Shown here: positions 1 through 10,198 of the stretch, one piece after another | How the letters are laid out: each line of letters starts with the position of its first letter | Numbering within the stretch: position 1 is the stretch's first letter | Source of the DNA: Bacteroidota bacterium | GTDB taxonomy: Bacteria; Bacteroidota; Bacteroidia; Flavobacteriales; Crocinitomicaceae | Reading direction: 5' to 3' | Length of the DNA: 10,198 nt | Assembly (NCBI GenBank): GCA_005798205.1 | Contig: SYKJ01000103.1 | Location: 1-10,198, forward strand | Made by a program: the position numbers and the translations under genes | Notes under the pieces: generated by a model | What the model was told of the DNA's origin: nothing | What the model saw: the letters and a program-made list of their open reading frames with translations, nothing else | The model's database searches: none

Positions 1-432
1 GAGGAAACTAAAAAACAGGCTATTCAATTAAAGGATTATCCAAAACTTAAGCGTGGCGAAAATGTAATTTTAGAAAATGGAGAAATTATCGACTTCAAAA
101 GCTGTGTTTTTGATCCAAAAAAACCGCTTTCCTATGCCTATTGCTCCGATACCTACCCAAGTGCAAAATACATAAATTCGATTCGTAAAGCAGACCTTCT
201 TTACCATGAGGCAACATTTACGGAAGAACATGCAGGTCGTGCAAAGTTAACACTCCACAGTACTGCGCAACAAGCCGCGGAGATAGCACAAAAAGCAAAT
301 GTCAAAAATCTCATTATCGGTCACTTTTCCTCTCGTTATGAAAATGGGGAAGAACATTTACGCGAAGCAAAAAAAATATTTGATAATACAAGTGTTGCGG
401 AGGATGGAATTGTAATTGATTTGACATTGTAA
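1..432 (+). CDS. rnz: Ribonuclease Z, C-terminal part (5' end outside window)
   Basis: The first 143 codons are open from the window edge to a TAA at 430-432. They encode the C-terminal half of a zinc-dependent tRNA 3'-processing endonuclease of the metallo-beta-lactamase superfamily, which removes 3' trailers from tRNA precursors in the cytoplasm. The family signatures are in order: YCSDT, whose Asp is a metal ligand in RNase Z; LLYHEATF; HST followed by QAAEIA, where the His is the proposed catalytic helper in characterised RNase Z; and GHFSSRY, with the last metal-binding His. The full protein is normally about 300 residues, so roughly half is missing here because the window starts inside it. 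The stop lies 21 bases before the next gene on the same strand, so read-through transcription into the HMGR fusion gene is possible. Identification is secure. Its link to the lipid genes downstream is probably only positional. Confidence 0.93.
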   Translation, partial: EETKKQAIQLKDYPKLKRGENVILENGEIIDFKSCVFDPKKPLSYAYCSDTYPSAKYINSIRKADLLYHEATFTEEHAGRAKLTLHSTAQQAAEIAQKANVKNLIIGHFSSRYENGEEHLREAKKIFDNTSVAEDGIVIDLTL

Positions 433-453
433 AAAATCTTGAAATCAATTTAA

Positions 454-2847
454 TTGAAGAAAAAATTATATTTTAGCATTCTTTTAAAAAAATTGAGTAA
501 AATTCCTATAATTCCTGGACGAGGTCTAACGACAAAAACTGCTACAGACTTGAGATTAGACTTTCTAAAATCGGAAAATCTTAAACTCGAAGCTATTGAA
601 GAACATCATCTAGATATTAAATCTATTCAAAACAACATAGAATCATTTATTGGGAGCATTGAAATACCAATAGGAATAGTAGGGCCCATAGTTTTCAATG
701 ATAATGATTCAAAAGAATTTGTTTATGCCCCAGTTGGTACATTAGAGGGCGCATTGGTTTATAGTATGAATCGTGGGGCAAAAGTTATTGCGTTAAGCAA
801 TGGTTTTACAGCAAAAATTCATTGGCAATATATGGTTAGAACTCCCATTATATTATTAGAAAATCTTAATTATGCACAAGCAATAATAAATTGGATAAAT
901 TCCCATTTTTCGGAAATTAAAGACGTAGCACAAGGATATTCCAACCATGCAAATTTATTACGCATAGAAACAGATTTAATTGATTTTTCTATCAACATAA
1001 AATTTATCTATAATACTGGTGATGCAGCAGGGCAAAATATGACTACCACTTGCACATGGCATGCTTTACTATTTATTGTAAATTCCATAAAACAGGAGTT
1101 TCCTGATACTATTTTTGATTACATCATAGAAGGAAATGCAGCTTCAGACAAAAAAATAGCATTGCAAAATATTGAAAAAGGTAGAGGAATTCGCGTAAGT
1201 GCTGAATGTAACATATCACGACAGGTAATTAAAGATGTATTAAGAACAACACCAGAGAAAATCTTAAAATTTTATTTGGCTTCGAAAAAAAATTCTGACA
1301 GCGTTGGAATGATAAGTTATAATGTTAATGTTGCAAATGCTATTGCTGCTATTTTTGTAGCAACTGGCCAGGACTTGGCGTCAATTCATGAATCTAGTTC
1401 TGGAATTTTACATTTTGAGCCCTTAGGAAATGAGTTAATACCTGATGGAATTCGAATAGCCCTCACTTTACCTAATCTAGTAATTGGTACAGTTGGCGGC
1501 GGCACAAATTTAAAAAAACAATCAGAAGCTTTGCAAATCATGGATTGTTTGGGGTCTGGAAAAGTTGAAAGATTTGCAAAATTAATTGCAGGTTTTTCAA
1601 TGGGTCTGGAATTTTCAACCTTTTCGGCTGTCATAAGCGGAGAATTTGCTAAATCACATGAAAAATTAGGCCGCAACAAACCTGTTTCATGGTTACTAAA
1701 ATCAGAAATTTCACCTGCCTTCCTCAATACTCATTTGCTAGAGTTAAATCCTGAATGGCAGATAAAAGAACTTTTTTGGTGTAATGATAACACTTTGGAT
1801 AATGGGATAATTACCAACATTACCAGTAGAATTACAAATAAATTAATAGGGTTTTTACCTTTAAGATTAGAGTTAAAAAATGGTGCTATAAAACCATTAT
1901 TAATTAAATCTAAGGCCAAAGATATTGAGTGCTTAAAAGGATTTCATATGATTTTAGCATCAGTTGATCCATTACTTTCTGATTTGATTAACAAACAACA
2001 AAAAGAAATAGAATTTTATAAATGTCACGAAAAAGAATTATTTATATACGAACATCTTCAAAAAAAGGGTTTTCTAGCAATGCCGATTTTCTTTGGAAAG
2101 CATATAAATGCAGAAAGAGAAATATATTTATTGTTAATGGAGTGGATTTGCGATAATGAAATTCAGCTAATAAACAGTGAAAACAATCCTGAAAAATGGA
2201 CTGAGGAATGGATTAACTCAAGCTTAACCGAAATTCATGCAGCCCATAGTATGCTAGAATCATTACCAATAGAACACCCTGAACTTCTGAGTACTTTTCA
2301 ACCATGGAAATCTATTGATTTATATGAAAAGCTTGTTGATATTCTAATAGATGTTTGCGCTATTGATTCTCAATTAGAAGTCCTCAAAAACATAAAAGTA
2401 AGTCTGCTAAATATAGAAGAAGATTACAAAAAAATTAAATGGCCACGAACACCTATTCACAACGATTTTAACCCTAGAAATATACTAATTCGATCCAATA
2501 ATATGCCCTGTATTTTTGATTGGGAATTAGCTATGATTGATTTTCCACAGCGAGATATTATTGAATTTTTAAGTTTTGTACTTCCTAAGGATTTTAAAGC
2601 CGAGTCTTTAATTAATTATTTACGTAATCACTATAATAGCATCGTTTTGAGAAAAGGGCCAGGTTATAATTTAAAATTCAAAGATTATTTAATAGCTGCA
2701 GAAATGTCAGTGAGAACCTATATCTGTTGTCGAATATCATTTTATGAAGTTTCTGGAATTATAGCTAAATATGATTTTTCTGAGCGTATTTTAAGAGTTG
2801 CAGTAAGAATTCAAAAAGTTATTATCACAGAGCTAAAAAATTTATAA
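454..2847 (+). CDS. HMG-CoA reductase fused to an APH/choline-kinase-fold kinase
   Basis: Residues ~15-415 are a class I-like 3-hydroxy-3-methylglutaryl-CoA reductase, the NADPH-dependent enzyme making mevalonate. Visible signatures are IPIGIVGP (71-78), GTLEGAL (95-101), TGDAAGQNM (188-196, the DAMGMN-type cofactor motif), EGNAASDKK (226-234), GQD (305-307), GTVGGGT (345-351) and KSH (400-402). All four catalytic residues known from class I enzymes have counterparts: E98, K233, D307 and H402. Residues ~460-797 form a kinase of the aminoglycoside phosphotransferase/choline kinase fold: a candidate ATP-binding lysine at K485, the catalytic-loop signature HNDFNPRN (H669, D671, N676) and a metal-binding FDWE (D689). 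Both halves look intact. The start is TTG at 454, directly after an in-frame TAA at 451-453; no ATG occurs before residue 105. A TTG at 493 (residue 14) is an alternative. The gene sits 21 bases after rnz and 9 bases before the CarS-like gene, suggesting co-transcription with the next two genes. The kinase substrate is unknown; mevalonate, a polyprenol or a head-group alcohol are guesses. Confidence 0.9.
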   Translation: MKKKLYFSILLKKLSKIPIIPGRGLTTKTATDLRLDFLKSENLKLEAIEEHHLDIKSIQNNIESFIGSIEIPIGIVGPIVFNDNDSKEFVYAPVGTLEGALVYSMNRGAKVIALSNGFTAKIHWQYMVRTPIILLENLNYAQAIINWINSHFSEIKDVAQGYSNHANLLRIETDLIDFSINIKFIYNTGDAAGQNMTTTCTWHALLFIVNSIKQEFPDTIFDYIIEGNAASDKKIALQNIEKGRGIRVSAECNISRQVIKDVLRTTPEKILKFYLASKKNSDSVGMISYNVNVANAIAAIFVATGQDLASIHESSSGILHFEPLGNELIPDGIRIALTLPNLVIGTVGGGTNLKKQSEALQIMDCLGSGKVERFAKLIAGFSMGLEFSTFSAVISGEFAKSHEKLGRNKPVSWLLKSEISPAFLNTHLLELNPEWQIKELFWCNDNTLDNGIITNITSRITNKLIGFLPLRLELKNGAIKPLLIKSKAKDIECLKGFHMILASVDPLLSDLINKQQKEIEFYKCHEKELFIYEHLQKKGFLAMPIFFGKHINAEREIYLLLMEWICDNEIQLINSENNPEKWTEEWINSSLTEIHAAHSMLESLPIEHPELLSTFQPWKSIDLYEKLVDILIDVCAIDSQLEVLKNIKVSLLNIEEDYKKIKWPRTPIHNDFNPRNILIRSNNMPCIFDWELAMIDFPQRDIIEFLSFVLPKDFKAESLINYLRNHYNSIVLRKGPGYNLKFKDYLIAAEMSVRTYICCRISFYEVSGIIAKYDFSERILRVAVRIQKVIITELKNL

Positions 2848-2856
2848 GAATTTTAT

Positions 2857-3441
2857 ATGTTTAATATTGATTCTTTTCAAAATATTTTTCTTTGGGGTGC
2901 GATAATTCCTTTAATTCTTAGTAACATTTTGCATATGCTTGTGGTGAAGAAAAATTATCTCAATTTTTTGAATTTCCCTATTCACGAAAAATGGTTTGGT
3001 GAAAATAAAACATACCGTGGATTTTTGATAGTCCCATTATTAAATGGTCTGCTATTTATGATTTTAAATTGGCCAGGGGGTTTATTAAGATCTACCTCAA
3101 CCCAAAATTTTTCAATTCAAAATTCTTTACTCAATCTTGACTCCATTTATGTACTTTTTCTGATAGGATTCATTTTTGGAATATTTTATGTAAGTTTTGA
3201 ATTGCCAAATTCATTAATTAAAAGGAGCTTAGGTATTAAAGCAGGTGAAAGTAGTAAAAGAGGACAACTATTTTTTAAAGCACTTGATAAAACTGATTCA
3301 GCATTTGGCTTAAGTTTATTTTTTGGCTATTTAAATAATTTTAATCTACAGCTTATGCTAACTTTCTTCGTAATTGCAGTATTTTTACATGTTATACTAT
3401 CACTTTTATTGGTGGCATTGAAAATCAAAAAGAAATTTTAA
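2857..3441 (+). CDS. CDP-archaeol synthase (CarS)-like membrane cytidylyltransferase
   Basis: This 194-residue polytopic membrane protein resembles CarS (formerly DUF46). In archaea that enzyme uses CTP to activate unsaturated archaetidic acid before head-group attachment, and it is related to bacterial CdsA. The sequence shows GENKTYRGF (48-56), matching the family's G-x-N-K-T-W-x-G-F region, then ELPNSLIKRSLGIKAGE (115-131) and LDKTDS (143-148), matching the conserved PNSFIKRRLGIKPG and LDxxDS regions of CarS/CDP-diglyceride synthetases that bind CTP and metal. About five hydrophobic stretches surround these motifs, and the length is close to that of archaeal CarS. The ATG at 2857 lies 9 bases after the HMGR fusion and the stop lies 11 bases before the CDP-alcohol phosphatidyltransferase, the enzyme class that would consume a CDP-activated lipid. 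Whether the substrate is an ether-linked isoprenoid glycerol phosphate or another lipid phosphate is not shown. Family assignment is good; exact activity is inferred. Confidence 0.78.
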   Translation: MFNIDSFQNIFLWGAIIPLILSNILHMLVVKKNYLNFLNFPIHEKWFGENKTYRGFLIVPLLNGLLFMILNWPGGLLRSTSTQNFSIQNSLLNLDSIYVLFLIGFIFGIFYVSFELPNSLIKRSLGIKAGESSKRGQLFFKALDKTDSAFGLSLFFGYLNNFNLQLMLTFFVIAVFLHVILSLLLVALKIKKKF

Positions 3442-3452
3442 ATGACGCGCAG

Positions 3453-4046
3453 ATGACAATATCATCAAAACCAAAAGAAAATCGCTGGAATCTGCCGAAC
3501 TTAATCAGTTTATATCGACTAGTATCTTTTCCCTTTCTTCTTTATTTAATTTATATTGAGAATGAATCCTTATTTGCTCTTTTGCTTTGTATAAACTTGA
3601 TTAGCGATATCATAGATGGCTTGATTGCAAGAACTTTTAAATTACAAACAGAATTTGGAGCCCGTTTAGACTCACTCGCTGATTGGGGCACTTATATTCT
3701 AGCATTTCTGGGAATTTATCAATTCAAAATGGAAGAACACCAAGCTGATTTTTGGCTACTATATGTCTTTATTGGATTAATAATTTTTTATAATATATTT
3801 TCATTTATTAAATTTCGACGCTTACCAAGTTTACATATGTTTAGCGCAAAAATAGGTGGGTATTTACAAGGAATATATTTCTTTAGCCTTTTTGCCTTTG
3901 GATTCTACCCTCCCATATTTTACCTAGCCATGATATGGGGTTGGGTAAGTAGTATAGAAGAAATAATTATCCTGATTTATTTGAAAAAGTTGCGTTCGAA
4001 TGTTAAAGGATTATATTGGGTCTTAAAGTCTGGTCAACGTCAATAA
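3453..4046 (+). CDS. CDP-alcohol phosphatidyltransferase
   Basis: A 197-residue membrane enzyme of the CDP-OH phosphatidyltransferase family, which joins a CDP-activated lipid to a polar alcohol (serine, inositol phosphate, glycerol phosphate and similar) with release of CMP. The full signature is present near the N-terminus with exact family spacing, D-x2-D-G-x2-A-R-x8-G-x3-D-x3-D, at D52, D55, G56, A59, R60, G69, D73 and D77. The four aspartates bind the two metals and supply the catalytic base. Several hydrophobic helices follow, and the length is typical. The ATG at 3453 is chosen because an earlier ATG at 3442 is in another frame and stops after four codons. It is the third gene of the HMGR/CarS-like run, so its lipid donor is plausibly the product of the preceding gene. 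The acceptor alcohol cannot be read from the sequence. The 3' end overlaps by 7 bases with the convergent methyltransferase gene. Confidence 0.88.
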   Translation: MTISSKPKENRWNLPNLISLYRLVSFPFLLYLIYIENESLFALLLCINLISDIIDGLIARTFKLQTEFGARLDSLADWGTYILAFLGIYQFKMEEHQADFWLLYVFIGLIIFYNIFSFIKFRRLPSLHMFSAKIGGYLQGIYFFSLFAFGFYPPIFYLAMIWGWVSSIEEIIILIYLKKLRSNVKGLYWVLKSGQRQ

Positions 4047-4615
4047 ATACCGGGGAATAATTTCCAGGTTTTTGTTTTGTATTCAAGATAAGCCTCTCCA
4101 AAATGGGACTCTAACACTTCTTCTTCTACTAATATTCTTGAGTAAGTGGAAAACCATACAGCACTGATAATTATAACAATACATAAAATGCTGTGAAACG
4201 ATAATGCATAGCCAAGACCATAAATATACATTCCGGTATAACTCGGATGTCTGACCCATTTATATAGTCCATCTTTTTTTAATTTATGATCTTTCAAAAT
4301 ACTCACTTTAACTGTAAAAGCTCTCTTGAGACTCAAAATAGCTCCCCATCTCAAAGCCATTCCCAAGATAAAAAGAATTGCAGAAATACAATCCAACCAA
4401 AATAAATTCGAAGAGTCCCAGGAAAATTTCCAAGGATCGATCCACGCAACTAAAAATGCCACAATAACTGATCCGGGCATTAGAATTCTAAATATCAAAA
4501 TAGTTTTATCGTCTTTTACAAATTGTAGGTCTTTCTCCTTGGCATTTTTTAAAATGTTTGCGGTAATTCCTGATAAGGCGACTATCAAAAACATGAAAAT
4601 AGATAACCAGCCCAT
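4040..4615 (-). CDS. ICMT/PEMT-family membrane methyltransferase
   Basis: A 191-residue integral membrane protein of the isoprenylcysteine carboxyl methyltransferase / phospholipid methyltransferase superfamily, which uses S-adenosylmethionine to methylate lipids or lipid-linked groups at the membrane. The C-terminal half carries the hallmark SAM-binding signature: GLYKWVRHPSYTG (116-128), then RILVEEE (160-166), FGEAYLEY and a terminal FPGIY. The N-terminal half is made of hydrophobic helices, beginning right after the start. The ATG at 4615 (reverse strand) follows the desaturase gene by 22 bases, so the two are probably one transcript. The 3' end overlaps the convergent CDP-alcohol phosphatidyltransferase gene by 7 bases. 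Bacterial members rarely have a proven substrate, so the true acceptor could be a phospholipid head group, an isoprenoid or something else. Because it runs opposite to the HMGR/CarS genes, a role with them is only suggested by proximity. Confidence 0.82.
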   Translation of the reverse strand: MGWLSIFMFLIVALSGITANILKNAKEKDLQFVKDDKTILIFRILMPGSVIVAFLVAWIDPWKFSWDSSNLFWLDCISAILFILGMALRWGAILSLKRAFTVKVSILKDHKLKKDGLYKWVRHPSYTGMYIYGLGYALSFHSILCIVIIISAVWFSTYSRILVEEEVLESHFGEAYLEYKTKTWKLFPGIY

Positions 4616-4637
4616 AATTTTAATTAAACTTATGAAT

Positions 4638-5528
4638 TTAAGATTTTACTTTTGTTTGGCTTTGGGAATCAGCTACAAAATGTTTAAATTGAGGGTCAAA
4701 CAATACGCCTCTAATAGCTCGGTAAACAGAAGTAGTTTTGGGTTTTTTCAACAAACCAATCCATAGAGTCAGCCAAGATAGTTGGGGGGCTTTATGGTGA
4801 ACATCATGATTTCCTATTCCCATTCCCAGTGGAAACCAAAATGTATTACTCTCATGTTCGTTATTATATCCAAGATGCTCGCACCAATGCCTTAAGATAC
4901 TAAAAACATTCATCATAAATAAACTTAAAATCAAAAACAGAAAATTCGGTTTGACTAGAAAAATAATTCCAATCGAAATGGCCGATGCCCAAACCATGTT
5001 GATGTAATTTATCTGAGGAGATTTAACTTGCTTCTTTTTTTTTGCCAGGCTTCCTTGTTGAGAAATGATTAAATACAACGTAAATAACAAAGGAATCAAA
5101 TTACACATTAAATAAAAATAACGATGATTTGTATACAAATGCTTTTTCACATCTGGCCACAGTGGATCAATTTCTGTATTAGTATTTGCGTGGTGAACAA
5201 GATGAAATTTTCTGAATGCTTCGGCATAAAAAGGTAAGAGCATGAGGCCCGAACCAAAATTCATGATTATTCGGTCGTATTTCGTTCTTGTAATTGATTT
5301 ATGAGCGCCATCATGCACAACAACAATGAAGAAAGCATGACTAATCATTCCTGAGAATAGAACTACCCAATAATGTCCTTCTGAAAATAAATTCATCAAT
5401 TGTCCGAGAGCTAAATACAAGCAAAAAGCAACGATTAAAGTCATCAATGGTATGAACCAACTGATTTTACGCAATTTACGTTCAATTTGAATTTCATATT
5501 CGTGACCAAGTGCATTTTCAGAAACCAT
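4638..5528 (-). CDS. Fatty-acid-desaturase-family membrane di-iron enzyme
   Basis: A 296-residue membrane di-iron oxygenase of the fatty acid desaturase superfamily. The histidine boxes are all present: HDGAH (H72, H76), HLVHH (H109, H112, H113) and HDVHH (H241, H244, H245), with extra histidines at H214 and H218 in HWCEHLG. Two pairs of hydrophobic stretches lie before and between the boxes, as expected for this fold. Such enzymes use molecular oxygen and reduced electron carriers to desaturate or hydroxylate acyl chains, sphingolipid-type lipids or carotenoids. The AFRKFHLVHHANTNTEIDP region also fits carotenoid hydroxylase/ketolase relatives, so an acyl-lipid desaturase and a carotenoid-modifying enzyme are both possible. 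The ATG at 5528 follows a promoter-like box. It is the first gene of a pair with the methyltransferase 22 bases downstream and is divergent from the unknown gene at 5591. Confidence 0.85.
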   Translation of the reverse strand: MVSENALGHEYEIQIERKLRKISWFIPLMTLIVAFCLYLALGQLMNLFSEGHYWVVLFSGMISHAFFIVVVHDGAHKSITRTKYDRIIMNFGSGLMLLPFYAEAFRKFHLVHHANTNTEIDPLWPDVKKHLYTNHRYFYLMCNLIPLLFTLYLIISQQGSLAKKKKQVKSPQINYINMVWASAISIGIIFLVKPNFLFLILSLFMMNVFSILRHWCEHLGYNNEHESNTFWFPLGMGIGNHDVHHKAPQLSWLTLWIGLLKKPKTTSVYRAIRGVLFDPQFKHFVADSQSQTKVKS

Positions 5529-5550
5529 GAGGTTATTTGAAGTGTTTAAG

Positions 5551-5558
5551 CAAAAATA
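5551..5558 (-). promoter_or_regulatory. Candidate Bacteroidota -7 box upstream of the desaturase gene
   Basis: On the reverse strand this reads TATTTTTG, an exact match to the Bacteroidota -7 consensus TAnnTTTG, with 22 bases between its end and the desaturase start codon. I could not find a convincing -33 TTG element at the usual distance upstream, so this is a half-supported promoter. Confidence 0.4.
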
Positions 5559-5590
5559 AGCATTTACATAAATTTATTTACTTTTATTAT

Positions 5591-6112
5591 ATGATTTATG
5601 TTCGAATTTTTCATGGTTCGTTCGCTAAGCTATTTAGCGGAGACAAATACCGTGAACTTGGAGGTTTATTTGGCGGTCATGTTGCCGTACAAGTGGATGA
5701 TCGTGTTTATGGTTTTTACTATGCGGATAGAGCGAAAATTCACATTTTTCCGAATACAAAAAATAAAAGTTCCATCTTTCAAAATCAATCCCTTGAGGAA
5801 TGGAATGACATTGTGAAGTTTAAAAAAGAAACAATCATTTCAATTCCTGCAACAGACGAGGAAAAACAAGAAATTAAAGCGTTTTATGAACGAAATGTAG
5901 CCAATCCTGAATGGGATTATTCCTTCTGGGAAGAGCGATGTGCATCTAGTTGTTTTCGATTATTGGTAAAATACCACAAAGTTTCTCCAGGCTCTAGATT
6001 TTTGAAAGCCTTTTTTCCAGGACAGTTGATTCATACATTAAAACGTGAAGCAAAAAAAAGAGGTTATGCGGTAAAAGTCAAACAAGGCGATTCACGCAGG
6101 ATTTGGCTTTAA
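5591..6112 (+). CDS. Unknown protein, possible permuted papain-like (LRAT/YiiX-type) fold
   Basis: A 173-residue protein that I do not recognise as a named family. I prefer the ATG at 5591. The frame extends upstream to a TTG at 5537, but that would put the start within 9 bases of the divergent desaturase gene and add 18 residues with no visible conserved motif. Near the N-terminus, GGLFGGHVAVQ (H30) is followed by a short beta-like segment and VYGFYY; further on, RCASSCFRLL contains C117 and C121. A His in a GGHV setting followed much later by a Cys at the start of a helix is the order seen in circularly permuted NlpC/P60 proteins such as LRAT and YiiX relatives, which are lipid acyltransferases or amidase-like hydrolases. 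That match rests on pattern alone. The C-terminus is basic. There is no signal peptide or clear membrane helix with the ATG start. It ends 13 bases before the convergent dikinase gene. Confidence 0.6.
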   Translation: MIYVRIFHGSFAKLFSGDKYRELGGLFGGHVAVQVDDRVYGFYYADRAKIHIFPNTKNKSSIFQNQSLEEWNDIVKFKKETIISIPATDEEKQEIKAFYERNVANPEWDYSFWEERCASSCFRLLVKYHKVSPGSRFLKAFFPGQLIHTLKREAKKRGYAVKVKQGDSRRIWL

Positions 6113-6125
6113 GAAAGTGCAGGAA

Positions 6126-8753
6126 TTAAGCTATTTTCTCAACAATTCCCGTTGTTCCGTTTACCCGAATTCGATCACCAGTTTTTATTAATAGTGTGGC
6201 ATCCTGGACAGCAACTACGACCGGAATTCCCAATTCTCGACCAACAATAGCAGTATGGCTCAATAATGAACCTTTTTCAGTGACCAATGCAATTGCCTGA
6301 GACATTAAAAATACCCATCCCGGATCAGTCATTTTACTAATTAAAATTTTACCTCTCACATTGGCTGTCAAAACTGGTTCTATAACAACAAGTGCCTCTC
6401 CCTCAACAACTCCTTTTGAAACCGGAACTCCTTTCAATAGTTGCTTTTGATTGAAACTATCGCGCGTAAGGTCTTCTAAATAAGTATCAAAATCAGGTTT
6501 TTCTGCCCTATTGTATATAATACGATCTGGTAAACGAAGTTTTTTATAATCAGAATATATTTTTTTACGTTCTACAATCTGATTTTTAAAACTTTCAGTC
6601 GACTGACAGCAGAATGATTTTACTTCATTTAAATCGAGGTAGAATATATCTTCTTTAGTCTCTATATGATTTTTACTAACCATTGATTCGCCAATTGCCA
6701 AGAAAATATCTTTGGATGTTCCGTAAACACGCGTTCGGCAATAACGCATATTTTCACGATTAGCTAAACCATATCGTGAAAGTCCTAAAACCCATTTAAA
6801 ATACCAAGTTTTTGGCATCCACCACTTAAGTTTTGAAGATACAATTTGAAAGGCATTTTCATAAATTTTCGCTTGTTTTTCTTTAAAATTAGCGGAGGTA
6901 ATATTGGAATCTAATTGGGATTTTATTAGTTGAACCAGCAAAATAGGACTTTGGCGAGGAGATTTAATTTCCAATTTTAGTTCCTCCAAAGTTCGATCGC
7001 CGAAACGCTTTAAATATTCTTTACAATCCGTATAAAATTGAGTTGATTCAATTTTTTTAAGAATTTCTCCATCTTCTAATTTGAAAATTTCCATCAAAGC
7101 GGAATTAGATTTTACCTGATCTTTAAGCTTTAAAAATGCTAAAATTGCCAACTCGGATTCAACCGATCCTTGTCCAACAATTAATTCGTTGGCCAACTCT
7201 TTATTTTCTGATATTTTTGAGTTAATAATAAAGTCCTGCAACCATCCAAATGTTTTGAAAGCCAAGTAATCATTTACAATAGTCAAATGATATTTCTCAA
7301 AAGTCATCTCTATCGATTCTTCAAGATGATACCATAGCTTTTCGGCTGAATTCTTATGGGATTCAAAATTTTGAAAATGTCTATATGCCTTATTAAAGTA
7401 CTTAAAAAAAAGTTTATTTCCTCTTTTATAATTTAGAATTAACCACAAGACAGATAGAGCAGTCTTTATTTTTCCAAGCAATGAAAACTGGTAGGAATCA
7501 CTTGCGGAATCAGGTAAGCCAACTGCATTCTCCCATGCCTCCATGGAGCGTCTAGAGTTATAAACTAATGCCATCATTTTATACCAATTATCCAAACGAT
7601 AATAGACCCTACCGTAAAAATGTTCAACTAAATTATTGAATACATTATTACTAGAGTCAAATTTTTTACTTGAAATCCAAAAAGCTTTAGCACTTCTTCG
7701 AAATAAATTGCTGTAAGCCATAGAAGCAAAAGAAAAACTCAATGGTAAAGTAATTCCAGGGTAACTTTCAATGATATTTGTATTGTCCAGTACATTCAAT
7801 TTTTCAATCTGAATGGTAGTAATCGGTCGCATTTGAAGAATGTATAATTCACCTATATCATCAAAAACGAATTCTATATCAGCAGGTTTTTTTAGGAGCT
7901 TTTCAGCTTGGATTACGGAATCAAAAACGATTGTAATTTCCTCATCTTTTAATACTGGCTTTTGTTGTAAATCAGGAGCTAAAGGAGCCAAATGAATACC
8001 ATTATGCTCATCAAAGCACAAGGAATTTTCTTTTATTGCTACACTATGCGTTATACTCTTATTGGCTCTGTTAATATAAAAACAATCTGTTTCAACTTTA
8101 TCCATCACTATTCCTTCACCAATACCATAACCACAGTTTATGACTGAATCAGCTAAATTTCCATTTGAGTTCATAGAAAATGCAATACCAGCTTTTTCAG
8201 CAAAAATCATTTTTTGAAGAACAATAGCATATTGTATATTTTGGATAGGTAAATTGTGGAATTTTCGATAGCTAATTGCACCAAAACTCCATGCTGAAGC
8301 TAATGATTCTTTGATATTTTTTATGAGTTTATCCGGTGTGGTGTATAGAAAAGTGCTATGTTGACCCGCAAATGAAATATCCGATGAATCTTCAGACATA
8401 GCTGATGATCTGACAGATATAAAATATTCCTTTCCAAATTCTTTCTCACAAAGCTGAAGTATTTGACTTTTTATTTCTTTTTTTATTTCAAACGATGTTA
8501 TCAAAGATTGGCAATCTAAACATAGTTCATTTAACTCCTCTGGAGCTAATTCTTTTTTAACTTGAAATGCAATTTTTATTTTTTTTTCAATTTCATAGAT
8601 AACTGAACCAAATATGATTTCTATGTCATACTTTGATATCGTAATAAATGGCGGCACACGAAAACCAGCTTTACTTAGAACTTTTAAATTGAATGCTTTC
8701 CCTCCAATTTCTGTTATTTGGACTGCTTTTTTTTCAAATAAATTAGTTGTCAA
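6126..8753 (-). CDS. RPH-like dikinase: PEP-synthase-type ATP-binding domain plus phosphohistidine swivel domain
   Basis: An 875-residue cytoplasmic phosphotransferase. Residues ~1-320 are the PPDK/PEP-synthase N-terminal ATP-binding domain: GGKAFNLKVLSKAG (17-30), VRSSAMSED (114-122), and the closing segment with DIEFVF (302-307) and LYILQMRPIT (313-322). Residues ~325-760 are a variable middle domain with YPGITLPLSFSF, GRVYYRLDNWY and a late KEDIFYLDL segment. The C-terminus is the swivelling domain GSLLSHTAIVGRELGIPVV, with the phospho-accepting histidine at H833. The PEP/pyruvate TIM-barrel of true PEP synthase or PPDK is absent. Size and order match rifampin phosphotransferase (about 865 residues), which moves the beta-phosphate of ATP through the histidine to a small molecule. 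The start is TTG at 8753; no ATG occurs before residue 119, and the ATP-binding domain needs the earlier start. It lies 3 bases after the UbiA stop, in the same frame, so it is surely co-transcribed. The substrate is unknown; a prenyl or lipid alcohol is an inference from the partner gene. Confidence 0.87.
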   Translation of the reverse strand: MTTNLFEKKAVQITEIGGKAFNLKVLSKAGFRVPPFITISKYDIEIIFGSVIYEIEKKIKIAFQVKKELAPEELNELCLDCQSLITSFEIKKEIKSQILQLCEKEFGKEYFISVRSSAMSEDSSDISFAGQHSTFLYTTPDKLIKNIKESLASAWSFGAISYRKFHNLPIQNIQYAIVLQKMIFAEKAGIAFSMNSNGNLADSVINCGYGIGEGIVMDKVETDCFYINRANKSITHSVAIKENSLCFDEHNGIHLAPLAPDLQQKPVLKDEEITIVFDSVIQAEKLLKKPADIEFVFDDIGELYILQMRPITTIQIEKLNVLDNTNIIESYPGITLPLSFSFASMAYSNLFRRSAKAFWISSKKFDSSNNVFNNLVEHFYGRVYYRLDNWYKMMALVYNSRRSMEAWENAVGLPDSASDSYQFSLLGKIKTALSVLWLILNYKRGNKLFFKYFNKAYRHFQNFESHKNSAEKLWYHLEESIEMTFEKYHLTIVNDYLAFKTFGWLQDFIINSKISENKELANELIVGQGSVESELAILAFLKLKDQVKSNSALMEIFKLEDGEILKKIESTQFYTDCKEYLKRFGDRTLEELKLEIKSPRQSPILLVQLIKSQLDSNITSANFKEKQAKIYENAFQIVSSKLKWWMPKTWYFKWVLGLSRYGLANRENMRYCRTRVYGTSKDIFLAIGESMVSKNHIETKEDIFYLDLNEVKSFCCQSTESFKNQIVERKKIYSDYKKLRLPDRIIYNRAEKPDFDTYLEDLTRDSFNQKQLLKGVPVSKGVVEGEALVVIEPVLTANVRGKILISKMTDPGWVFLMSQAIALVTEKGSLLSHTAIVGRELGIPVVVAVQDATLLIKTGDRIRVNGTTGIVEKIA

Positions 8754-8756
8754 GAG

Positions 8757-9773
8757 TTAAAATATTTGATAATGTATAAGCGTATTAATCAGAAGGTTAA
8801 TAAAAAAAATGGAAGTAGTAAATAGTGCAACATTTGTGAGAACATTGTATTTATTAATTGGTTTCAGTAAGAATCTCAGATAAAAGAATAGCACTACCAA
8901 CATGATTATAACTACGATATAATTATATGCTGGGCTAAATTCCATAGTTCTACCAATATATATGTGTATAAATCCAACAATTAAAAAAAATGCTAAGGGT
9001 ATAATTGTAGCAGCTTTTATGCCAATTACCATTGAAAATGTTTCGTATTCTGTTTCCATGTCTGCTGATCGAATTTTACGTGAAATCTCCCAAGCAGTAA
9101 TTGGCATCGAAACAATTAATAAAAGACAAACGTGAATCCACTGGAATGACTCATATTCTGAACCTGTTGCCAATGCTGTATGAAGAAGAAAGAAATTAAT
9201 TACATAAGGAAGTGGTTGATGATTTAACATGGTAATAAAAATATGTTCGCGATGAAATTTTTCTGCAAAAAACCACTTAAAAGTTAATACTGCATAGGTG
9301 ATCATTATAGCAAAAACCATTAAAGTTTGTTGGCCCCAAATGAAATTAACAAGCAATAGAATAATAAAACTACTTAAACTCAATAATTGAATATCGCGCT
9401 TTAAAACTAATTTCCTTGCTGTTGCTCGATGAGGGAAAAGTTTTGCGTCTAAATCAAAATCTTTCAAGTCGTCAAAAGTTCTCATTAAAAGCATCATGAA
9501 AAAAGCGGTAACTACTCCAGCAATTGCAGTAGAGTCAACAACAACTTCTGACCCAGCTTTATAAATTGAATCTAATAAATTGGATGAAGTCCCACGATTT
9601 TGTTTAAAAATTTTAAATATAGGAGTATTTAAAATCTGAGTTACAATATTTACACAAAAGTATAAGGAAACTACGTAAGGTATATAAATAGCTATTGGAA
9701 ACATCTCTTTGGAGTAAATCCAAGCTCGAATCCAAAAATTATTGGGTGTCTCTGATGTTCTTAACTGAGTCAT
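8757..9773 (-). CDS. UbiA-superfamily membrane prenyltransferase, divergent
   Basis: A 338-residue polytopic membrane protein with about eight or nine hydrophobic helices. The first aspartate-rich motif is RTFDDLKDFDLD (98-109) followed by FPHR (113-116). It fits the UbiA NDxxDxxxD plus RPxR pattern with Asp replacing Asn, and in known enzymes it binds the prenyl diphosphate through magnesium. The second motif is altered: where UbiA, MenA and DGGGP synthase have KDxxDxxGD, this protein has WEISRKIRSADMETEYETFS (228-247), with a Glu and a basic patch before acidic residues. I associate this pattern with a little-studied bacterial UbiA branch rather than with quinone or heme O enzymes. The family transfers a prenyl chain to an aromatic or, in archaea, to geranylgeranylglyceryl phosphate. 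The ATG at 9773 follows a promoter-like box, and the dikinase gene follows after 3 bases. Family membership is likely; substrate and even retained prenyltransfer activity are open. Confidence 0.8.
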   Translation of the reverse strand: MTQLRTSETPNNFWIRAWIYSKEMFPIAIYIPYVVSLYFCVNIVTQILNTPIFKIFKQNRGTSSNLLDSIYKAGSEVVVDSTAIAGVVTAFFMMLLMRTFDDLKDFDLDAKLFPHRATARKLVLKRDIQLLSLSSFIILLLVNFIWGQQTLMVFAIMITYAVLTFKWFFAEKFHREHIFITMLNHQPLPYVINFFLLHTALATGSEYESFQWIHVCLLLIVSMPITAWEISRKIRSADMETEYETFSMVIGIKAATIIPLAFFLIVGFIHIYIGRTMEFSPAYNYIVVIIMLVVLFFYLRFLLKPINKYNVLTNVALFTTSIFFINLLINTLIHYQIF

Positions 9774-9802
9774 TTTAGATAATTATTAATTAAGTTAAAT
9801 TA

Positions 9803-9810
9803 CAAAAATA
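9803..9810 (-). promoter_or_regulatory. Candidate Bacteroidota -7 box upstream of the UbiA-dikinase operon
   Basis: On the reverse strand this reads TATTTTTG, matching TAnnTTTG exactly, in the 56-base AT-rich gap between the permease and UbiA genes and 29 bases before the UbiA start codon. The same nine bases (TTATTTTTG) stand in front of the desaturase gene. No clear -33 TTG was found, so the call is tentative. Confidence 0.4.
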
Positions 9811-9829
9811 ATTATTTTACTCTGTTAAA

Positions 9830-10198
9830 TTACCTTTGAGAAAATCTGAATAGAACGTAAGCAACTAGTGCAAACAAGATATTCGGAATCCAAACGGCCA
9901 ATAATGCTGGGAAACCAACATTCAAAGCAGCAACAGTCATCATTTTCATTGCAAAAATATAGATAAAGACAAAACCCAATCCAATTGCAATATTAATTCC
10001 TATTCCACCTCGTTTTTTTCGCGAGGAAACAGAAACTCCAATAATTGTTAAAATATACGCTGCAAAAGGGTAAGAAGTGCGTTGATGTAATTCAATTTGA
10101 TAGTACGGTACAGATGCAGAACCTTTTGATTTTTCTCTAGAAATTAATTGTCTCAGTTCTACAAAAGACATTGTCTCAGCAATGTTCTCTCTTTGAGC
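9830..10198 (-). CDS. LptF/LptG (YjgP/YjgQ) family permease, C-terminal part (5' end outside window)
   Basis: The reading frame is open from the window edge to a TAA at 9832-9830 and gives the last 122 residues of a YjgP/YjgQ-family membrane protein. These are the transmembrane subunits of the ABC exporter that lifts lipopolysaccharide from the inner membrane to the periplasmic bridge. Family features visible are ETMSFVELRQLISREKSKG, then YYQIELHQRTSYPFAAYIL, SSRKKRGGIGINIAIGL and the near-terminal WIPNILFALVAYVLF, making three or four C-terminal helices. An ATG at 10171 lies inside the conserved region, so it is internal and not the start. Full members are about 350-500 residues, so most of the protein is outside. 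LptF and LptG cannot be told apart here. It lies 56 bases upstream of the UbiA gene on the same strand, and an own promoter is likely for UbiA. Confidence 0.88.
   Translation of the reverse strand, partial: AQRENIAETMSFVELRQLISREKSKGSASVPYYQIELHQRTSYPFAAYILTIIGVSVSSRKKRGGIGINIAIGLGFVFIYIFAMKMMTVAALNVGFPALLAVWIPNILFALVAYVLFRFSQR

Follow-up and report, generated by a model that had tools for sequence, protein, structure and literature searches.

The 10,198-nucleotide stretch of Bacteroidota DNA analysed here (contig SYKJ01000103.1, positions 1 to 10,198, hereafter the window) carries between positions 454 and 9773 a cluster headed by a gene in which a domain related to 3-hydroxy-3-methylglutaryl-coenzyme A reductase (HMG-CoA reductase, HMGR) is fused to an APH-type kinase. 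We give about even chances to the proposal that the locus belongs, as one variant, to a wider and so far undescribed pathway for a polar lipid, with the HMGR-like reductase, a PPDK-like dikinase and a UbiA-like transferase at its core. What was observed is the set of genes and its conservation, changes in the active site, the pathway context of the hosts and the CarS fold of a predicted model. In particular, the proposal is supported by conserved neighbours, by the split of host genomes between mevalonate-diphosphate decarboxylase (MVD) and DXR, by an altered reductase pocket on a separate tree branch, by a related block containing BtaA-like proteins with three bridging loci (L046, L051, L079), by the CarS fold and by a fusion in Streptomyces that has a GH3 protein and a TMPK-like kinase as neighbours. 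The HMGR relative is unlikely to serve the textbook role of providing isoprenoid building blocks.

The fusion gene (454..2847, + strand) combines an HMGR-like reductase (residues ~14-410; PF00368, 309 bits) and a kinase (residues ~440-797; PF01636, 44 bits). A TTG at position 493 is the likely start and yields 784 residues, the length of the database protein P0001, which is 98% identical to the window protein over the kinase half, the part searched. Gene calls in the window were based on a list of open reading frames and on Pfam and NCBIfam profile scans. Related loci were collected from a scan of public genomes, in which 486 related places were found; the best 80 and the window make up the 81 loci counted below. 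A search with the kinase half returned 329 proteins, of which the best 120 carry both Pfam domains. Alignment to solved enzymes showed that catalytic Glu98, Lys233, Asp307 and His402 are retained. Glu98 was found in all 78 readable sequences and the other three residues in 81/81, with one gap at His402 in a realignment. The pocket residues aligned with human Arg590 and Lys692 are also kept, an Arg is present at human R871, and the fused kinase displays the motifs HNDFNPRN and DWE.

Two other positions depart from the canonical enzymes. At position 226, the counterpart of human Ser684, 77 of the 81 loci have Glu and the other 4 Asp; at position 292, the counterpart of human His752, all of them have Asn. 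The human, Methanothermococcus and Streptomyces xanthophaeus enzymes, the last encoded among mevalonate-pathway genes, keep both Ser and His. A search with the reductase half returned 869 proteins; among the 112 new relatives found in the best 120 of these, position 226 was acidic in 112 and position 292 was Asn in 106. Streptomyces, Pseudomonas and Pendulispora are among the sources of the reductase-half relatives listed, and the listed members of the subfamily come from Bacteroidota, Streptomyces, Pseudomonas, Myxococcota and others. According to the accessible part of the source, Ser684 and Lys692 are counted among the residues of the HMGR substrate pocket (PMC3875450). An acidic residue at the Ser684 site would disfavour a carboxylate substrate and, as aligned, the HMG pocket is altered in this subfamily. 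The other HMGR of the fusion genomes is what we take to be a class II-like enzyme at 19 of 20 places retrieved, which represent 19 genomes. It therefore provides no direct control for Ser684, and the human, Methanothermococcus and Streptomyces enzymes were used.

Among 296 genomes sampled from the phylum, 25 besides the one on which the sample was centred encode kinase-less relatives of the reductase. These stand-alone proteins have Glu (24) or Ala (1) at the Ser684 site and His in 25/25 at the His752 site, so that Asn at the latter is a mark of some members of the subfamily and not of all. A tree of 52 chosen sequences places the three canonical enzymes together on one branch, away from the fusion and operon members. 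In the midpoint drawing, L134/L139 and variants with Ala at the Ser684 site (L132, L111 and Alteromonas L115), which fit neither group, stand nearest the canonical side, and the S. xanthophaeus branch is long. L111 is a third HMGR in the L030 genome (G010), a protein of 419 residues with another variant pocket (AANFDTDKK). In the Ser684 region, L115, from an Alteromonas plasmid, has AANLDTDKK and L116, from a Vibrio fluvialis plasmid, has FLDGNLSGDKK; mevalonate genes are absent among their listed neighbours. L134 and L139-L152 are long (514-588 residues) stand-alone HMGR-like proteins with ESNFATDKK, seen in many DXR-positive Bacteroidota, and lack UbiA and PPDK partners. They constitute a second orphan branch of the same HMGR-like subfamily, and in L134, L151 and L152 the gene adjoins an acyl-ligase-like gene.

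The isoprenoid pathway of the hosts was examined for 30 chosen loci, of which 29 genomes were searched (all but that of L013). Many of them are metagenome assemblies with no completeness given, and absences are weaker than presences. A strong MVD match (141-187 bits, five over the curated cut-off) was found in 22/29 genomes, all of which lack DXR and have one or more HMGRs besides the fusion. Six encode DXR, have no convincing MVD (one match at 23 bits) and possess the fusion as their sole HMGR; one has neither DXR nor MVD. Among the 25 stand-alone genomes, 22 show strong DXR without convincing MVD and three strong MVD instead, one 23-bit DXR match and two MVD matches of about 20 bits being set aside. 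DXR without convincing MVD is thus seen in 28 of the 54 genomes examined, and the reductase is therefore decoupled from the synthesis of isopentenyl diphosphate (IPP) in those 28. A convincing match to MVD, the downstream enzyme looked for as a sign of a mevalonate-pathway role, is missing from 6/29 fusion and 22/25 stand-alone genomes that have DXR. The fusion was rejected as the mevalonate HMGR of its host because 22/29 genomes have another HMGR and 6/29 are DXR-type with the fusion as sole HMGR.

The reductase could still make mevalonate from HMG-CoA without passing it to IPP, the fused kinase then producing a phosphomevalonate that would serve as lipid backbone or head. The conserved catalytic residues, the retained counterparts of Arg590 and Lys692 and the fusion of a kinase to the reductase agree with this scheme, and we know of no other reaction for the HMGR fold. 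It is made improbable by the acidic residue at the Ser684 site in 81/81 loci and in 112/112 further relatives, by the invariant Asn at the His752 site of the 81 loci and by the lack, in an insensitive test, of an HMG-CoA synthase match in the six DXR-type fusion genomes.

The polar-lipid proposal draws further support from the neighbours of the fusion. Many of the 81 loci are short contigs, and the counts are therefore lower bounds. A gene for a CarS-like membrane CTP transferase (in the window 2857..3441, +) occurs in 44 loci, in all 44 directly next after the fusion on the same strand. A CDP-alcohol phosphatidyltransferase (3453..4046, +; PF01066, 78 bits) is present in 28 loci, 27 of which also have the CarS-like gene, and an ICMT/PEMT-type membrane methyltransferase (4040..4615, -; PF04140, 73 bits) in 12, all with the CarS-like gene. 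The PPDK-like dikinase (6126..8753, -) was counted in 37 loci, the UbiA-like integral membrane transferase (8757..9773, -) in 23 (any of three clusters), a desaturase-family enzyme (4638..5528, -; PF00487, 60 bits) in 26 (any of three clusters), the YiiX-like protein (5537..6112, +) in eight and a TMPK-like kinase in 15. CarS-like, PPDK-like and UbiA-like genes are found jointly in 18/81 loci. The gene association at the locus exceeds chance.

Four layouts were distinguished. Layout A has the gene set of the window. Layout B (ten loci, e.g. L059 of Polaribacter filamentus) comprises the fusion, CarS-like, PPDK-like and small UbiA-like proteins, a class I methyltransferase and a desaturase, with a PlsC-like gene in addition in nine of the ten. 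Its small UbiA-like protein was named by eye from a DD...D motif, and no Pfam match was found in two that were scanned. In layout C, the fusion is accompanied by TMPK-like kinases and mostly also by NTP_transf_5, PPDK-like and epimerase genes. Layout D, the Kordia type (11 loci), lacks the PPDK/UbiA arm and combines the fusion with genes for a CarS-like protein, a CDP-alcohol transferase and GtrA. CarS-like and TMPK-like genes never occur together (0/81 loci; 44 and 15 have one; Fisher 1e-6). The tree requires just two switches among these loci, so that a role of the two as alternative activators of a phospho-alcohol is a lead and not a proof.

A related operon was found in seven of the 25 stand-alone genomes (L125-L130, L133). 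It is a single block of acyl ligase, GNAT, HMGR-like, UbiA-like, PPDK-like and BtaA-like (DUF3419) genes and a kinase-like membrane protein; five of the seven genomes are DXR-type and two (G093, G187) MVD-type. The membrane protein is called kinase-like for an RKxxH pattern that we assume to be that of dolichol/phytol kinases, and Pfam found nothing in the three that were scanned. The UbiA-like and PPDK-like members of the operon score 203-248 and 678-831 bits, respectively, against profiles from the fusion loci, profiles that already contain L046 and L051 (plus L079 for UbiA). These loci bridge the two gene sets. The neighbours of the fusion in L046 and L051 are UbiA-like and PPDK-like genes and a gene in which BtaA and GNAT are fused; an acyl ligase is present as well. 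In the myxococcal L079 UbiA-like, BtaA-like, fusion and GNAT genes follow in a row. In addition, genome G004 holds a window-type locus (L008) and a second block of UbiA, PPDK, BtaA, GNAT and ligase genes (L136), the reductase being absent from the stretch examined. In our reading, fusion loci and BtaA-type blocks share one core pathway, to which different head-group modules can be fitted. Further divergent blocks of UbiA/PPDK/BtaA or PPDK/ligase genes were seen in L137 (G026) and L138 (G028), whose genomes hold the fusion elsewhere. On a plasmid of Streptomyces NBC_01435 (L113:13209-18121, +), a GH3 protein, an HMGR-APH fusion and a TMPK-like kinase are encoded in a row; the kinase is related to cluster 9 (52 bits), and polyketide synthase (PKS) and other carrier-protein genes lie nearby.

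The individual partners resemble known enzymes to different degrees. The CarS-like protein matches the NCBIfam CDP-archaeol synthase model PRK04032 (E 4e-8) at 33 bits for a cut-off of 148 and was not matched by Pfam CarS. On a second look, its predicted model was read as a CarS fold; Foldseek returned nothing at E<=0.001 for this model or for that of the YiiX-like protein, and no relative of the CarS-like protein was found on viral contigs. The PPDK-like protein is an ATP-grasp and phospho-His dikinase of Rph/PigC-like aspect (PF01326, 188 bits; PF00391, 80 bits). Its closest solved chains, 5fbs/5hv2, are labelled phosphoenolpyruvate (PEP) synthase (E 2e-58). It contains LLSHTAIVGRE, and the pattern SHxAxxxRE is present in 30/37 relatives. 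PPDK_N and PEP-utilizers are its only Pfam domains at E up to 0.05; PF02896, presumably the PEP/pyruvate-binding TIM-barrel domain of PEP synthase, has no match. The 191-codon reading frame at 5537..6112 encodes a putatively YiiX/NlpC-like protein, possibly a lipid transacylase or hydrolase, whose aligned relatives fit a start at 5588. Its predicted model was tentatively read, likewise on a second look, as YiiX/CLN5-like, and the phrogs library gave no match for 5588-6109.

The UbiA-like protein scores 33.3 bits on PF01040, just below the Pfam cut-off of 34.2, and its NCBIfam matches are limited to PRK13592 (89.6 bits) and PRK12884 (18.5 bits), neither of which reaches its cut-off. Its family retains the first Asp-rich motif (DDxxDxxxD-type; D101, D105 and D109 in 20/20). 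UbiA prenyltransferases typically carry a second Asp-rich motif, which is replaced here by ExxRK (E229 in 19/20, R232 and K233 in 20/20), in a region that aligns weakly with NDFKSVEGD of chlorophyll synthase. In its accessible part, a study of the enzyme Rv3806c states that UbiA enzymes need a second Mg2+ and describes this membrane phosphoribosyltransferase of UbiA fold as having one metal-binding Asn/Asp site and a Lys/Arg cluster for the diphosphate (PMC10994848). The window family, with one Asp motif and ExxRK, is similar to Rv3806c as described there, but Rv3806c is absent among the chains matched by the window protein at E up to 1.

These features bear on the original prediction, made from the letters of the sequence, of an archaeal-style or other isoprenoid polar lipid. 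The families on which it relied (HMGR, CarS-like, CDP-alcohol transferase, UbiA, methyltransferase, desaturase and phosphotransferases) were confirmed in place by Pfam and NCBIfam; its two phosphotransferases proved to be the PPDK-like protein and the APH kinase, the latter fused to HMGR. An archaeal-type isoprenoid ether lipid built from glycerol-1-phosphate would be consistent with the CarS fold, with digeranylgeranylglyceryl phosphate (DGGGP) synthase 6m31 as the solved structure nearest to the UbiA profile (E 6e-7) and with weak scores of two operon-type UbiA-like proteins on DGGGP-synthase models (26 and 16 bits). The search for geranylgeranylglyceryl phosphate (GGGP) synthase gave a mixed answer. 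PF01884 matched in 22/29 genomes, but the gene lies near only one of the 81 loci (L078), with a 20-bit match in L035, in phmmer with the L078 protein as single query. In L078 it is ~2.7 kb from the fusion and adjoins phosphopantetheinyl-transferase-like and PnuC-like genes, both named by eye. The seven unmatched genomes include the isolate Polaribacter filamentus (G019), which has a clade-B locus. Glycerol-1-phosphate dehydrogenase (PF13685) is not discriminating, being matched in 25/29 genomes (21 over cut-off) and also in 13/14 controls. The archaeal ether lipid was rejected as the leading explanation on GGGP synthase linkage, on UbiA motifs and models and on the MVD/DXR split, and we hold it to be very improbable: GGGP synthase is unlinked, the window UbiA-like protein falls below cut-off on both models and misses the second Asp motif, the HMG pocket is altered and the reductase is not tied to isoprenoid supply. 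Of the prediction's two halves, the suggestion that the product is something else entirely has the better support, and a polar-lipid locus remains plausible given the CarS fold, the tentative YiiX/CLN5-like fold, the CDP-alcohol phosphotransferase, the UbiA-like protein and the BtaA-like enzymes of relatives.

In the pathway that we propose, the HMGR-like domain would reduce an acyl-CoA, either other than HMG-CoA or HMG-CoA not bound for IPP, to a primary alcohol, which the fused APH kinase would phosphorylate. Attachment or activation of the hydrophobic part may fall to the UbiA-like and PPDK-like enzymes. The CarS-like enzyme would convert the lipid phosphate to a CDP-lipid, and the CDP-alcohol phosphotransferase would exchange CMP for a polar head, the desaturase, the ICMT-type methyltransferase and the YiiX-like protein possibly tailoring chain or head. 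In the related operon, a similar core would be combined with a BtaA-like 3-amino-3-carboxypropyl transferase, GNAT, acyl ligase and the kinase-like membrane protein to give another head group. Alternatively, the cluster might make a diffusible prenylated or acylated natural product such as a pigment, quinone or signal. PPDK-like proteins also score on the PigC and RedH models of condensing enzymes, and PKS and other carrier-protein genes occur in the vicinity of the Streptomyces fusion. The CarS fold, the CDP-alcohol phosphotransferase and the BtaA-like and PlsC-like partners are nevertheless lipid-type enzymes, and neither the window nor the neighbourhoods listed drew attention to a nonribosomal peptide synthetase or PKS gene, no scan having been aimed at them; we regard such a product as unlikely.

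Several points weigh against the polar-lipid pathway. Every substrate, the order of the steps and the lipid nature of the product are what we infer, and the pocket argument is built on alignment. HMG-CoA synthase models PF01154 and PF08540 each match 7/29 genomes and miss most mevalonate-type ones, which makes them insensitive, and leucine breakdown could be a source of HMG-CoA in hosts using the methylerythritol phosphate pathway, so that the mevalonate reading keeps some likelihood. Operon and window UbiA-like proteins are just 17-24% identical, and 18/25 stand-alone relatives lack the adjoining UbiA/PPDK/BtaA block, one of them at a contig end. Neither a CarS-like nor a TMPK-like gene is present in 22/81 loci. 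The fusion itself is rare, being present in the phylum sample only in the genome on which that sample was centred. Finally, in six Kordia/Winogradskyella genomes (G005-G009, G018) that have the fusion along with CarS-like and CDP-alcohol genes, nothing matched the window PPDK at 1e-10 or the window UbiA at 1e-3, and the minus-strand UbiA/PPDK arm is therefore not universal. Together with the 11 Kordia-type loci, these genomes would fit two independent clusters that are neighbours by coincidence. The joint presence of CarS-like, PPDK-like and UbiA-like genes in 18/81 loci and of stand-alone HMGR-like, UbiA-like and PPDK-like genes in 7/25 further genomes leaves this coincidence hardly credible. 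The two arms of the original prediction thus co-occur with conserved neighbours, and the refuting condition set by the prediction itself, arms that do not keep company in other genomes, was not borne out. A strict two-arm unit is nevertheless contradicted by the Kordia-type loci, in which the plus-strand arm stands alone.

Comparison with known systems underlines both kinship and distance. The reductase shares with class I HMG-CoA reductases (human, archaeal) the family, the catalytic Glu, Lys, Asp and His and the Arg at human R871; it differs from them by the acidic residue at Ser684, Asn at His752, the fused kinase, its separate branch and its occurrence as sole HMGR in six DXR-positive genomes. 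The CarS-like protein resembles CDP-archaeol synthase CarS in its predicted fold, whereas it is below the NCBIfam cut-off, unmatched by Pfam CarS and associated with other genomic partners. Betaine lipid synthesis by BtaA is echoed by BtaA-like proteins, which occur next to three fusion genes and in the related block, but the window has no BtaA, and the betaine-lipid pathway is not known to involve proteins of the HMGR-like, UbiA-like or PPDK-like kind. Metagenome-assembled genomes of Ca. Cloacimonetes (FCB group) are described, in the accessible part of the source, with co-localised GGGP and DGGGP synthases and CarS undetected (PMC7852524). UbiA-family and CDP-lipid steps are proposed in both cases; the window locus has an unlinked GGGP synthase and a CarS-like protein, and is therefore, as far as that part of the source goes, a different arrangement. 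In the open PMC literature, no lipid route with these conserved partners turned up.

The cluster is flanked by truncated genes for RNase Z (1-432) and LptG (9830-10198). ARAGORN reported a tRNA-Val (cac) at 5710-5788 on the plus strand, inside the conserved gene at 5537-6112, which is probably a false positive. No RNA family reached its gathering score in the window, and promoter and terminator scans yielded no more than shuffled sequences.

It is conceivable, though doubtful, that these genes make a new class of bacterial membrane lipid, in which the backbone alcohol would come from an acyl-CoA through the HMGR-like reductase rather than from glycerol phosphate, the core would be joined by the UbiA-like and PPDK-like enzymes, and the head would be either a phospho group (fused kinase, CarS-like enzyme, CDP-alcohol transferase) or an amino-carboxypropyl group (BtaA-like block). 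Biochemistry knows few enzymes as well as HMG-CoA reductase, and in genome annotation a match to it is taken as a sign of mevalonate synthesis. If the proposed pathway is real, some bacterial mevalonate-pathway annotations would be wrong, and a lipid class may await discovery in Kordia, Polaribacter, Niastella, Aestuariivivens and other genera that include cultured members.

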